Virus record (IMG/VR): IMGVR_UViG_3300033571_003673 | Span: 1 to 34,979 of that record | Direction: 5' to 3' (one strand) | From: a virus | DNA: 34,979 bases | Shown: piece after piece, positions 1,869-10,990 of the stretch | How the letters are laid out: each line of letters opens with the position of its first letter | How positions within the stretch are numbered: position 1 is the first letter of the stretch | The notes under the pieces: generated by a model | The model's database searches: none | Seen by the model: only the letters and a program-made list of their open reading frames with translations | What the model was told of the DNA's origin: nothing | Position numbers and translations under genes: made by a program

Positions 1869-3197
1869 TTAACCGACTAAACGAACACCCGCGAAAACAT
1901 CCAGGATCGTGCTACAAACGCGTTTCTCTGCAAATAGGTACACGAACCCAGGCGCAGTTTGATCGAAGCGTTTGATACTCATCTGATCGTTATCTGCGAT
2001 GGTTACGAAGCGTTCCCAATCTGCCAGGTACACCGGATTATTTCCGGAACCGGCAACTTCCATATATGGGTTAGGGATAACCCTATGCCCAAAAATATAG
2101 ATCACCGCGCCGCCATCATCATCACCCGCTTCCACAAACATTGGGGAACCGCCGGTTGAACCTTTCAACTTGCGAATTGCACCAATGGTAGTTGGATGCA
2201 TCATCCAACAAGTAGTTGGTTTGAACAAGTATTGGGCAGGCAATGCCGCCATCAAGTTTGCTAGATCGTCATAAGATACTGCGCTTGCGCTTGCCTGGGT
2301 AACTTCCAATACAGTATGAATACCGTTGGTAATTGCGCTACCGTTCGAACCGAACGCCGCCGCGCTAGTGCTACCAGGATAAGAATTCAAACCACGCAAG
2401 CCGCTAGTTGCACCGTATGCGGTGGTAGTGCTTCCTGCCTGGTCATTGTTAAGCATCATAGATTGGGCTTCAACCTGGGAAAACTCTAAGGCTAAATCCA
2501 TAACCAGGGTTTCTTCCAGGTTATCAATATCCGATAGGATCGCAGTACGAACCGGCAACACCGCGTTTACATCGCGGATCGGCAGTTGCCAAAATGAAGT
2601 TGCTTGATTTGGCGTACCTTCGTTGGTGTTCACACCATAACCCCAGGGGTTTGTTGCATCCTGAGAATTACCGGTTTTAACAACAAACGCCTGATCGGAA
2701 CCGGTAGTAACAATTTGGCGGGATACTTGGCGGAAAGGATTTGCAAGGCGCAAAGATGCAAACGCATCATCGTAAATTACACGCCCGCCAACATCTGAAC
2801 CGGAACCCGTAATCGCGCTTGCTTCGCGCAGATTAACTACGGATTGCCCTTCAACCAGGGCTTCTTTAATGCCTTGAAATATTGCGCTATTGTCCATTTT
2901 CCTTAATTCCTTTTCTGCCCATGTTTTTCCAGGATCACCACCCCACAATGCCCACGCGATTCGCCCCGCACTTGGGTACCCATCTTCGCCAGGCTTCCAA
3001 CCTTTGCCCTGCTTATCTACTTCGTGCCGGGCAAAATAACTAACCATTCGTGCAATTGTTGCGCGGGGTAAATCCTTGCCATTCATAATATCGCGCGCCC
3101 TTGCAACTCCCACTTCTGTACCGCCGCGCCCAAACTCTTTGCGCCATTCCAAACCCTTGCGGGCTTCTGCTTTCATGGCATCGGTTGGTTTAGGCAT
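1869..3197 (-). CDS. Second HK97-fold capsid protein, fused to an unrelated N-terminal domain; likely internal start at 2897
   Basis: 442 residues. Residues 1-100 form a compact charged domain (KPTDAMKAEARKGLEWRKEF at 3-22; ARHEVDKQGKGWKPGEDGYP at 56-75; WALWGGDPGKTWAEK at 82-96). I recall similar blocks in other uncultured phages but cannot name the family. Residues 101-442 are a clear paralogue of the capsid protein encoded just upstream: LREASAITGSGSDVGGR matches LKEASALTGSGAGVGGR, and FSQVEAQSMMLNNDQAGSTT matches FSQVEGASMIANDDQSGSTT. Met101 (ATG 2897-2895) is preceded by AAAGGAATTAAGGAAA, a doubled ribosome binding site inside the frame, so a 342-residue capsid form is probably also made. 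The full-length ATG at 3197 also has a site (AGGAAAAGATAA). This paralogue lacks the helical delta domain of the first capsid protein. It may be a minor or vertex subunit (inference). Confidence 0.85.
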   Translation of the reverse strand: MPKPTDAMKAEARKGLEWRKEFGRGGTEVGVARARDIMNGKDLPRATIARMVSYFARHEVDKQGKGWKPGEDGYPSAGRIAWALWGGDPGKTWAEKELRKMDNSAIFQGIKEALVEGQSVVNLREASAITGSGSDVGGRVIYDDAFASLRLANPFRQVSRQIVTTGSDQAFVVKTGNSQDATNPWGYGVNTNEGTPNQATSFWQLPIRDVNAVLPVRTAILSDIDNLEETLVMDLALEFSQVEAQSMMLNNDQAGSTTTAYGATSGLRGLNSYPGSTSAAAFGSNGSAITNGIHTVLEVTQASASAVSYDDLANLMAALPAQYLFKPTTCWMMHPTTIGAIRKLKGSTGGSPMFVEAGDDDGGAVIYIFGHRVIPNPYMEVAGSGNNPVYLADWERFVTIADNDQMSIKRFDQTAPGFVYLFAEKRVCSTILDVFAGVRLVG

Positions 3198-3247: not shown

Positions 3248-4561
3248 TTACGCGCCCGTTGCAGTTGAACGGTAACGGATGATTGCGAATGGATCAACAA
3301 CGCTAGAACAAACGCGCTTCTCACCGTAGAAAGTGATGAAGCCAGGTGCAGTTTGATCGTAACGGCGAAGAACCATATTCAAGCGATCAACGATGGTATG
3401 CCCGCGAGTGAAATCACCGAAATACATTGGGTACTTAGAAGCGGTACCAGGTGAACCGGCGGCGATTGGGCTATCAACATAGTTGTTAACAACAACATCG
3501 TAACCCAACAACTTACCAACAATACCTTCGTAAACGCTTGGTGCCATGCGTTCAAATACGGGGGTGTTGTTATCGTCAACCATGCCACGAATAAAGGAAA
3601 GCATCAATGGCGAAACCATGAACTTGTTGTTGCTATTCCAATATTGTTGTGGAAGGCTATGCAAGAAGTTAATCAAGTCAGCGTAAACCATTTCACTTGT
3701 TGCGCCTGCGGCGTTGGTAGTGATTTGGTCATAAGTTGCAATGCTATGCAAACCTGCGCTTGCGCCTGTTCCGCTTGAACCAAATGCGGCAGTAGAAATT
3801 GTGCCGCCGGTGTAACTTGCATTTGCGCCTGGATAGTAATCCAAACCACGCAAACCGTTTGTGCCGCCGGTTGCAGTTGTAGTGCTTCCGGATTGGTCAT
3901 CGTTGGCGATCATAGATGCGCCTTCAACTTGCGAAAACTCAACCAACATATCATCAACCACATTGGCTTCCAAACCATCAATATCATCCAATGCCGCAGT
4001 ACGGATTGGGAATTGACAGTTAATATCTTGCAAAGTCAATTGCCAAATGTTAGTTGCTTCGGTAGTTGCAGAACCGTTGTTCTGAATGGTGTAACCCCAT
4101 GATGCACCTGCGTTACCGGTTTTAGCGCGGAACTGATAAGTTGCGCCATCGGTAGATACATTGCGGGAAAGTCCGCGCATTGGGTTAGCCAAACGCAAGG
4201 CATGGAATACGGGATCGTATGCAGTACGACCACCAACGCCCGCGCCCGAACCGGTCAATGCGGATGCTTCTTTTAGGTATGCATCGTACTGATCGGTTGA
4301 TTCGAACATCTTGATTTCTTTTTCAAGGCGATCACCTTTTGCAACGAACTCTTTAAGTTGCGATTTAACCATGCGGTTAACATCACCCTTAATAGTTTTT
4401 GCGGGTGCCTGGATAATTGCAGGGGCTTTAACTTCTGCAACCTTTGCTTCCAGGGCGGCGATCTTCTCGGCAACTTCTGCCTTTACTGCTTCCATTGATT
4501 CTGCAATCTTGGTTTCATTTTGTACCGCGATTGCATCCAATTTTTCAAATACTTTTTCCAT
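3248..4561 (-). CDS. Major capsid protein, HK97 fold with delta domain
   Basis: 437 residues, ATG at 4561 with AAAGGAAGCGAAA upstream. Residues 1 to about 85 are strongly helical and charged (MEKVFEKLDAIAVQNETKIA, then EAKVAEV and a Lys/Glu stretch), as expected of the HK97 delta domain that acts as internal scaffold and is removed by the prohead protease. The capsid core follows from about residue 97 (LKEASALTGSGAGVGGRTAY), with the E-loop region, the A-domain (VDDMLVEFSQVEGASMIAND) and the C-terminal 'RRYDQTAPGFITFYGEKRV' strand. It follows the protease gene directly, the normal HK97 order. The second capsid gene downstream is a paralogue without the delta domain. Confidence 0.93.
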   Translation of the reverse strand: MEKVFEKLDAIAVQNETKIAESMEAVKAEVAEKIAALEAKVAEVKAPAIIQAPAKTIKGDVNRMVKSQLKEFVAKGDRLEKEIKMFESTDQYDAYLKEASALTGSGAGVGGRTAYDPVFHALRLANPMRGLSRNVSTDGATYQFRAKTGNAGASWGYTIQNNGSATTEATNIWQLTLQDINCQFPIRTAALDDIDGLEANVVDDMLVEFSQVEGASMIANDDQSGSTTTATGGTNGLRGLDYYPGANASYTGGTISTAAFGSSGTGASAGLHSIATYDQITTNAAGATSEMVYADLINFLHSLPQQYWNSNNKFMVSPLMLSFIRGMVDDNNTPVFERMAPSVYEGIVGKLLGYDVVVNNYVDSPIAAGSPGTASKYPMYFGDFTRGHTIVDRLNMVLRRYDQTAPGFITFYGEKRVCSSVVDPFAIIRYRSTATGA

Positions 4562-8596: not shown

Positions 8597-9061
8597 TTAA
8601 CCTTTTGCCCCGCGAAGGAATTTGGAAACGGCGGAATCTTCATCCGGCTTAATCGTACTTAGGCGGCTTCTTGGCGTAAGCCCCATTTCGTTCATTAACT
8701 GCAAAATCAGGGAAAGCGTTTTGTTGCGAATCGTAATGTAGGGATTTGCACCTAGGGTTTTGCCCTCATTAAATTCAACAACTAAACCTTGTTGCGCGAT
8801 GAACTTGTTGCATTGAATGTAGGTATCCAGGTGATCGGCAAGCATTGCCAGGGTATGCCGATCTTGTTCGGAACCAATACCGTAAACATTAAAAAGGAAT
8901 TCTGCGGTTTCGTTTACGAAGGCTTCCTTATCCCAGGCATCCGGGTTATCCATCCATTCGGAAACCGGAACGCGACCACGCACCGAAGGCGGTAACAATC
9001 CGCCCTGGTTAATTCCCTTCGATCCATTAACAACATGAAGTTCGGGTGGTAGTTTGTTCAT
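8597..9061 (-). CDS. terS: Terminase small subunit (P27-like)
   Basis: 154 residues, ATG at 9061 with AAAGG eight bases upstream. The core has the P27-family pattern: LAMLADHLDTYIQCNKFIAQ (central helix), then QGLVVEF with a 'NPYITIRNKTLSLILQLMNE' helix and the ending MGLTPRSRL. Family members bind the packaging start site and load the large subunit. Residues 14-45 are Gly/Pro-rich. The gene lies three bases upstream of terL and downstream of an untranslated region with nested inverted repeats, which is the likely packaging site. Confidence 0.88.
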   Translation of the reverse strand: MNKLPPELHVVNGSKGINQGGLLPPSVRGRVPVSEWMDNPDAWDKEAFVNETAEFLFNVYGIGSEQDRHTLAMLADHLDTYIQCNKFIAQQGLVVEFNEGKTLGANPYITIRNKTLSLILQLMNEMGLTPRSRLSTIKPDEDSAVSKFLRGAKG

Positions 9062-9303
9062 AACATAAACCTTTCGCGATTAACTTTTCGATAGTTTACG
9101 CATAAACGATCTAACGCGTAAAGCGTTCGGGGAATTTCCCCAGGGAATTCCCACGCAAAAAAGGTTTTTCGGCTTCACCCCCGCACAAAACAATTAACAC
9201 CCCCCTAGGGGGAACCCTATTAGGGTGTAATTGCCCCCCGGCTTGCTTTCCTACCAATTCACAAATATTTAAGTTTCTAAAAAGTTTTACGCGTTTGCGC
9301 TTG
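9062..9303. other. Non-coding region between HNH and terS with nested inverted repeats; candidate cos/pac site
   Basis: This 242 bp stretch has no convincing gene. At 9191-9233 a large imperfect inverted repeat (CAATTAACACCC against GGGTGTAATTG) encloses a perfect 12-bp palindrome CCCCCTAGGGGG at 9201-9212 and a second hairpin (ACCCTATTAGGGT at about 9214-9226). In HK97-like phages with an HNH gene beside the terminase, the cohesive-end site lies in exactly this interval. The structure could also serve as a terminator for the leftward early transcripts, but no U-run follows it. Function inferred. Confidence 0.5.
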
Positions 9304-9762
9304 TCAGAAGGGGGGTGCGCTTGCTTCCATGCCAACGGATAGGCATACCCTAGCGTAATCTTCAATCGTGTAATCTTGGGCTTCGTGGTTAGTGTAGTGC
9401 CGGAAGATTCCCTTGCGTTCTAGGCTACCTTTTACAGTATGGCAGTTCTTGCACAATGATTGGAATACATTGGAATAGAAAGCATCTTCACCTATTTGTT
9501 GCCAGGGGAATAGGTGATCCACTTCAGTTGCGGCGGTTACCTTGCCCGCAAGTTGGCAGGATTTACATAAAGGGTTAAGGCTAAGTGTCCGCATACGGGT
9601 ACGCGCCCATTGTGCGGTTTGGTATTTAGCGTTGAATTGTTTTCGCTTGAAGGTGTCGTTGTATCCCTTACCACCATGTAATGAACAATAGGTATTGAGT
9701 AGGGATCGTTCGTTAGTGCAACCCAGGTACGCGCACTTAGTCTGTTTCGGTACGGTTGGCAT
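9304..9762 (-). CDS. HNH endonuclease of the packaging module
   Basis: 152 residues, ATG at 9762, overlapping the upstream gene by 26 bases. The N-terminus has a possible zinc site (Cys10, Cys15, Cys26, His29). The HNH domain shows CKSC at 66-69, VDHLFPW at 81-87 with Asp82-His83, Asn98, then CKNCH at 104-108, the usual ligands and catalytic His of phage HNH proteins. Such proteins stand next to the terminase genes in many HK97-type phages and are needed there for specific cutting of DNA during packaging. Here it precedes a structured non-coding interval and terS, so a packaging role is more likely than homing. Confidence 0.88.
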   Translation of the reverse strand: MPTVPKQTKCAYLGCTNERSLLNTYCSLHGGKGYNDTFKRKQFNAKYQTAQWARTRMRTLSLNPLCKSCQLAGKVTAATEVDHLFPWQQIGEDAFYSNVFQSLCKNCHTVKGSLERKGIFRHYTNHEAQDYTIEDYARVCLSVGMEASAPPF

Positions 9763-10594: not shown

Positions 10595-10671
10595 TGGTTG
10601 CGGGGGCGCGAGTTGAACGCGCAATCTTAACGCCCAAATGAAGGGCGCAATCCTTAACCGTAAGCCCCGCG
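10595..10671 (-). tRNA. Initiator-tRNA-like gene, anticodon CAU, D-arm degenerate
   Basis: Read leftward: 5' acceptor strand CGCGGGG (10671-10665), a 17-base D region, anticodon arm CGCCC-TTCATTT-GGGCG (10647-10631) with CAT at loop positions 34-36, an eight-base variable region, T-arm GCGCG-TTCAACT-CGCGC (10622-10606), 3' strand CCCCGCA, discriminator A and an encoded CCA. The acceptor stem, including the C1:A72 mismatch, equals that of bacterial initiator tRNA. The T-loop fits TTCRANY. Unusual: no normal D-stem (only CTTA/TAAG with a four-base loop), U at position 37, and CCC:GGG instead of GGG:CCC in the anticodon stem. The total of 77 bases is normal. The 12-base word TTAAG(G)ATTGCGC occurs in both the D region and the variable/T region. 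It could be functional, a decoy or decayed. Confidence 0.72.
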
Positions 10672-10676
10672 ATAAA

Positions 10677-10808
10677 TTAGCGAACACCACATCCGCAGAT
10701 CATTTTTCCGTTCATGCCTGGTTTGCAGTTGTAAGGCGCGTAAGCAGGGCAGGCGGCAAATGCGCTAAATGATGCCATTAACAAAATGGATGCAATTACT
10801 TTTTTCAT
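10677..10808 (-). CDS. Small secreted Cys-containing peptide A
   Basis: 43 residues. Residues 1-19 form a signal peptide (Lys-Lys, hydrophobic VIASILLMASFSAFA, cleavage likely after AFA). The mature part is about 24 residues with four cysteines (20, 28, 38, 40) and a high Gly/Lys content, ending CGCGVR. If Cys20 were the +1 residue of a lipobox the protein might be a lipoprotein, but FAAC is a poor match. The ATG at 10808 follows AAGGGGAAAACT, a strong ribosome binding site. It lies five bases upstream of the tRNA-like gene and next to a similar peptide gene. Function unknown; export to the periplasm is the only firm inference. Confidence 0.7.
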   Translation of the reverse strand: MKKVIASILLMASFSAFAACPAYAPYNCKPGMNGKMICGCGVR

Positions 10809-10819
10809 AGTTTTCCCCT

Positions 10820-10990
10820 TTAAGGTTGTTTGCAAGAAGTTGAACAGTTACCACCATAGCAACAAGTATTGCAATAAACCGCTTGCCCGTTGCTTATGTA
10901 TTGCCAGGCGCGGCAAACATTGGTGTTTTGTGCCAATGCAGTTCCCGCGATCAAACCAATAAAAATTGCCGCAATTACTTTTCGTGTCAT
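10820..10990 (-). CDS. Small secreted Cys-rich peptide B
   Basis: 56 residues. Signal peptide at 1-20 (MTRK, then hydrophobic VIAAIFIGLIAGTALA, cleavage after ALA). The mature part of about 36 residues has six cysteines (26, 40, 43, 44, 49, 53) in a Gly/Ser/Asn-rich chain, a spacing that would suit a small disulfide-knotted fold. The ATG at 10990 follows AAAGGAAACACGAT. The first codons overlap the stop of the RusA gene. Together with peptide A it forms a pair of exported Cys peptides inside the leftward regulatory/nuclease block. No homologue is recognised. Possible roles are periplasmic inhibition, superinfection exclusion or stress on the disulfide machinery, all inference. Confidence 0.7.
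   Translation of the reverse strand: MTRKVIAAIFIGLIAGTALAQNTNVCRAWQYISNGQAVYCNTCCYGGNCSTSCKQP

Follow-up and report, generated by a model that had tools for sequence, protein, structure and literature searches.

The window analyzed here, a virus record of 34,979 bases, carries tail, capsid, portal and terminase genes together with genes for an Erf-type annealing protein, an exonuclease and an SSB; no integrase is found among the genes scanned. Judged by its terminase, the closest named phage is Methylophilaceae phage P19250A (70.8% identity), from which we infer a host within the Methylophilaceae. Two neighboring minus-strand genes (1869-3197 and 3248-4561) both match major head protein families (phrog_10 and phrog_15928), which suggests a tandem pair of capsid-type genes. 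In many related contigs (L008-L087) the sequence stops roughly 400-700 bases upstream of the gene for the large terminase, next to an HNH endonuclease gene (window 9061-9400), as if a packaging (cos) site or a fixed genome end lay there.

Between two small minus-strand genes lies a tRNA-like element of 77 nt, which reads CGCGGGG-CTTACGGTTAAG-GATT-GCGCCC-TTCATTT-GGGCGT-TAAGATT-GCGCG-TTCAACT-CGCGC-CCCCGCA-A-CCA on its own strand and whose parts are listed in Table 1. The gene that follows it encodes a winged-helix-like protein, with its ATG just after a purine-rich stretch resembling a ribosome site. Two tiny Cys-rich proteins (43 and 56 aa) with signal-peptide-like starts are encoded upstream (window 10677-10990, minus strand), the first of them absent in some relatives; the gene directly upstream is a different one in the related contigs L002, L004 and L007. 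There is no sigma-70-like site close upstream of the element and no convincing promoter of its own, so it is likely to be made by processing of a longer transcript.

Table 1. Coordinates of the tRNA-like element, its parts and the adjoining genes in the window.
Feature	Position	Strand	Basis
Whole initiator-type tRNA-like gene, 77 nt	10595..10671	-	Cloverleaf fold; same 77-mer in L002, L003/L005, L004, L007; model R1 match 107 bits
Acceptor 5' strand CGCGGGG, C1 unpaired against A72	10665..10671	-	Sequence; invariant in all relatives
D hairpin CTTA-CGGT-TAAG (or CTT-ACGGTTA-AGG, GG in loop), joined directly to acceptor stem	10653..10664	-	Fold; invariant in 5/5 distinct sequences
Linker GATT; may pair with variable-region GAT(C/T), giving a junction without unpaired bases	10649..10652	-	RNAalifold consensus (tentative)
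Anticodon arm: 6-bp stem, inverted C29-C30-C31:G39-G40-G41, loop UUCAUUU	10630..10648	-	Fold, alignment
Anticodon CAU	10638..10640	-	Sequence; invariant
Variable region TAAGATT, 7 nt (TTAGATC in the 4 other distinct sequences)	10623..10629	-	Alignment
T-arm GCGCG-TTCAACT-CGCGC; columns 53:63 CG here, GC or AU in relatives	10606..10622	-	Alignment
Acceptor 3' strand CCCCGCA	10599..10605	-	Sequence, alignment
Discriminator A73 and encoded CCA (CCC in L007)	10595..10598	-	Sequence, alignment
Winged-helix-like protein P0001, 71 aa	10355..10570	-	ATG 24 nt after CCA; present with the tRNA in all contigs found
Cys-containing putative secreted peptide, 43 aa	10677..10808	-	Stop codon 5 nt before the tRNA; relative in L005

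Fold and initiator identity

The minimum-energy RNA fold of the element is a four-arm cloverleaf (-31.5 kcal/mol, z -2.35), with the consensus T-loop and the CCA site of a canonical tRNA. Its position, strand and length, the CGCGGGG/CCCCGCA acceptor in which C1 faces A72 as a mismatch, A73 and the encoded CCA are as originally predicted, and so are the CAU at the anticodon place in a 7-nt loop (UUCAUUU, with U33), the T-loop (UUCAACU, on a normal T-arm) and a short D region (16-17 nt) with a 4-bp hairpin. The acceptor/D linker (bases 8-9) is reduced to nothing; the predicted D hairpin closes on a 4-nt loop, and an alternative one of 3 bp keeps GG within its loop, ACGGUUA. U8/A9 and the formylation element R11:Y24 (A11:U24) are missing, the remodeled D-arm offering no equivalent pair. 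The sixth pair of the anticodon stem is G-U or A-U. In the RNAalifold consensus a GAUU:GAU(C/U) helix is added, which would leave a four-way junction without unpaired bases; a single change, G-C to G-U, speaks for it.

ARAGORN, proposed from the outset as a check on so unusual a tRNA, does not report the element as a tRNA, and Rfam searches at gathering level return no match to it. A direct search with the Rfam tRNA model (RF00005) likewise finds nothing at the element in the window and gives only partial T-arm matches in two relatives (15.1 and 12.4 bits), where the canonical phage tRNA L113, taken as a control, scores 66.8 bits. BLAST of the element in named phages matches no more than pieces of other tRNAs, from the T-arm or the acceptor, and a THF-II riboswitch match in the region, which scores 13.4 bits where the cut-off is 41, is due to chance. 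Standard tRNA finders can thus pass over real phage tRNAs, as the element shows.

Methionine identity is set mainly by CAU (PMC9976931), and the C1xA72 mismatch, with G2:C71 and C3:G70, assists formylation (PMC7949028). The original prediction overlooked that the anticodon stem lacks the initiator GGG:CCC: the three G:C pairs 29-31:39-41 are inverted at all three positions to CCC:GGG (with U31:G39 in L004), and position 37 is U. Judged by its sequence, the element joins the acceptor of an initiator to an anticodon stem that is not of initiator type, which is a new observation. In E. coli, inverting just one of these pairs, to C30:G40, lowers P-site binding and initiation (PMC2268962); mutants that lack all three G:C pairs can initiate under scarcity of the normal initiator (PMC7949028). 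The suggestion that such a tRNA would favor phage starts is, in its simple version, argued against by the CCC:GGG stem and U37, which leave a decoy or mimic role open.

For comparison, at least 86 other distinct initiator-type tRNAs were collected from viral contigs, a set that may include host sequence beside prophages. Among the matches listed, G30 is kept in 82 of 86 and A37 in 80 of 86; the element has C30 and U37, and it is therefore an outlier even among phage initiator-type tRNAs. Many of the viral-contig tRNAs among the matches listed are without the full GGG:CCC anticodon stem. C1xA72 CAU tRNAs with normal D-arms occur in other phages and are common in viral contigs (for example L113 2241-2317 and L114 814-891); these two, considered as copies of the element, are canonical initiator-type tRNAs.

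Conservation among related phages

Pattern scans of IMG/VR find the same 77-mer at the same locus in L002, L003, L004, L005 and L007, the copies in L003 and L005 being identical; adding the window brings the set to six contigs with five different sequences, each 77 nt long and all from one close phage group. Invariant columns make up 65 of 77 (84%), whereas the invariant share of third codon positions is 27% and 23% in the two downstream genes, and pairwise identity is 90-96%, against 44-76% at third positions of the adjacent gene. The D-hairpin, the linker, CAU, U33 and both acceptor strands, including C1xA72, G2:C71, C3:G70 and G4:C69, are the same in all five, as is A73. CCA is encoded in four of the five distinct sequences; the L007 copy (9152-9228) ends in CCC and would need 3'-end repair by the host.

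Where stems vary, the T-stem pair in columns 53:63 is C-G, G-C or A-U in different phages, a compensatory pattern; the other variable pairs alternate between G-U and A-U or between C-G and U-G, or are broken once, by an A-C in L002. As the sequences are few and the statistics modest, the covariation score being reached by 33 of 500 shuffles, conservation relative to the neighboring genes is the stronger argument. Decay of the tRNA, one of the readings first offered, is contradicted by the 65 invariant columns and the compensatory T-stem pair, which together mark the element, on the evidence of the alignment, as a real gene under strong selection. The missing linker bases and the silence of ARAGORN and Rfam could point to a decaying tRNA or to what is left, at an attachment site, of the host's initiator tRNA gene, but this is very improbable given a constant length, a proportion of invariant columns far from the roughly 25% at the neighbors' third codon positions, the compensatory change and, for an attachment site, no integrase among the scanned genes. 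The proposal of a phage tRNA of initiator type that lacks a normal D-arm holds and gains strength: loss of acceptor pairing or anticodon in relatives had been named as evidence that would count against it, and both are kept in all of them, together with the odd D-arm.

The winged-helix reading frame is open through the element in all five sequences, as it would be if the element coded for an N-terminal extension of that protein. This is the least credible of the explanations weighed here: of the 12 variable columns, 5, 2 and 5 lie at codon positions 1, 2 and 3, third positions showing no excess, there is no conserved start codon, and an intact ATG lies downstream of the ribosome-site-like stretch.

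Outside this phage group, the short-D pattern is absent from a GTDB-based cellular genome set; the two matches there, both in genome_contigs, are canonical, being ordinary Uhrbacteria initiator tRNAs with an extra CAT. Matches to the D-arm word in L006, L111 and L112 come without acceptor or T-arm and are due to chance.

The 12-base word that had been read as duplicated between the D region and the variable/T region is not an exact repeat: GTTAAG plus GATTGCGC stands against the same letters with a one-base indel, and the exact shared runs are only 6 and 8 long. The window has GTTAAGGATTGCGC in the D region and GTTAAGATTGCGC in the variable/T region, one indel apart. L002, L003, L004 and L007 read GTTTAGATCG at the second place, their letters at the second word being GTTTAGATCGCG, and have the same D-arm. 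By the neighboring gene and the terminase, the window groups with L003 and L007, not with L002 and L004; the relatives' form of the second word is therefore ancestral, and the aligned sequences trace the near-repeat to substitutions at two columns, 44 and 49, in the lineage leading to the window. An internal duplication did not replace the D-arm, since the relatives have the same D-arm without the duplicate.

Association with the winged-helix gene

Each of the six contigs has both the element and the winged-helix gene, with 21-24 nt separating the element from the ATG; about 40 other terminase relatives, many of them fragments, yielded neither. Absence in relatives with a 97%-identical terminase is uninformative, as G001, the one examined, ends before or inside the region. 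P19250A has no tRNA annotated or detectable. On the far side, the window phage and P19250A have their genes in the same order (DUF5856, HNH), and in P19250A the DUF5856-like gene directly follows another gene, for which reason the tRNA and the winged-helix gene may have been inserted jointly.

This association bears on a serious competing explanation, to which we assign a smaller probability than to the auxiliary tRNA described below: a tRNA mimic that does not take part in translation and is bound by MetRS, Fmt, IF2 or an initiator-cutting nuclease, either as a decoy in trans or as a leader in cis that controls the winged-helix gene, comparable to the thrS operator. Acceptor and CAU are kept in an element whose anticodon stem runs against the initiator pattern and whose D-arm is atypical, and both the joint occurrence and the constant spacing would suit such a mimic; tRNA mimics in mRNAs that are bound by MetRS-type enzymes are documented (PMC9976931). 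A leader in cis, however, would need neither an encoded CCA nor a fully normal T-arm, no phage gene points to a target, and within one close phage group the linkage to the winged-helix gene may reflect shared ancestry only.

RNase P requires little beyond an acceptor/T stack. The element could on this ground be a processing signal and nothing else, cleaved by RNase P/RNase Z between the upstream and downstream messages, and its place between same-strand genes, 5 nt past a stop codon and 24 nt ahead of a start, with no convincing promoter of its own, would fit; we consider this improbable, as the D hairpin, the CAU loop and the C1xA72 mismatch are invariant though unneeded for cleavage.

Proposed role and comparison with known tRNAs

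Our tentative preference, held at somewhat less than even confidence, is that the element is a functional phage gene for a non-canonical auxiliary initiator-type tRNA-Met that is processed, charged and formylatable; we favor it over the non-translating mimic or cis leader, with the inverted anticodon stem as the main source of doubt. Fold, conservation and the acceptor features of an initiator are what the sequence shows; transcription, processing, charging, formylation and use are proposed to run as follows. Host RNase P and 3'-end nucleases would excise the element from a polycistronic minus-strand transcript, MetRS would charge it via CAU and A73, and Met-tRNA formyltransferase would formylate it via C1xA72 with G2:C71, C3:G70 and G4:C69. 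The short D hairpin, stacked directly on the acceptor, and the longer anticodon arm would hold the L-shape in the manner of tRNA-Pyl and mitochondrial tRNA-Ser(UGA). During infection, the element would then serve as an auxiliary initiator-type tRNA, which its rewritten anticodon stem and D-arm would make independent of, and probably resistant to, limits on the host initiator, be it low copy number or a tRNA-cutting defense. That phage tRNAs evade anticodon nucleases through changes in the anticodon loop is a published idea (PMC10264068), and by analogy a rewritten anticodon arm around an unchanged CAU would fit it, the nuclease being hypothetical here. Lysogeny that depends on a tRNA has been described (PMC10865867); it is unlikely for the window phage, because no integrase was found.

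A further reading, which we regard as possible but doubtful, is of an initiator mimic evolved by the phage: it would be charged and formylated, yet be stopped from behaving as an initiator by the inverted anticodon stem and the remodeled D-arm, and would act on translation start or on defenses that target the initiator, possibly as a cassette with the winged-helix regulator. A bacterial virus here keeps, under strong selection, what appears to be an initiator-type tRNA without an acceptor/D linker and with an inverted initiator anticodon stem. Should the element initiate, it becomes a test of how far the bacterial ribosome depends on the three-G:C-pair rule and on the tRNA core; should it not, it would be a natural initiator decoy.

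Compared with bacterial initiator tRNA-fMet, the element shares C1xA72, G2:C71, C3:G70, G4:C69, A73, CAU, U33, the T-arm consensus and a length of 77 nt with CCA, its acceptor being identical to the usual CGCGGGG/CCCCGCA; it differs in having no bases 8-9, a D-arm of 4 bp and 4 nt, a 7-nt variable region, inverted pairs 29-31:39-41, U37 and no A11:U24. The canonical phage initiator-type tRNAs (L113, L114) are alike in being viral-contig tRNAs that combine C1xA72 with CAU, often lacking the full GGG:CCC; unlike the element, they have a normal D-arm and U8 and are found by ARAGORN. The thrS-type operators of mRNAs resemble it in placing a tRNA-like fold just upstream of a start codon, whereas the element has a full acceptor with CCA and a T-arm.

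To our knowledge, tRNA structure outside organelles is almost always canonical. Like the element, tRNA-Pyl and mammalian mitochondrial tRNA-Ser(UGA) have few or no acceptor/D linker bases, a tiny D-loop and a 6-bp anticodon stem (PMC4394434); where this architecture is taken as at most one linker base, a 6-bp anticodon stem and a D-loop of about 5 nt or less, the predicted fold of the element has 0, 6 bp and 4 nt. Both differ from it in carrying other identity elements and in not being initiator-type, and D/T-loop GG-UC contacts are possible in the element; the resemblance is one of form, not of membership.
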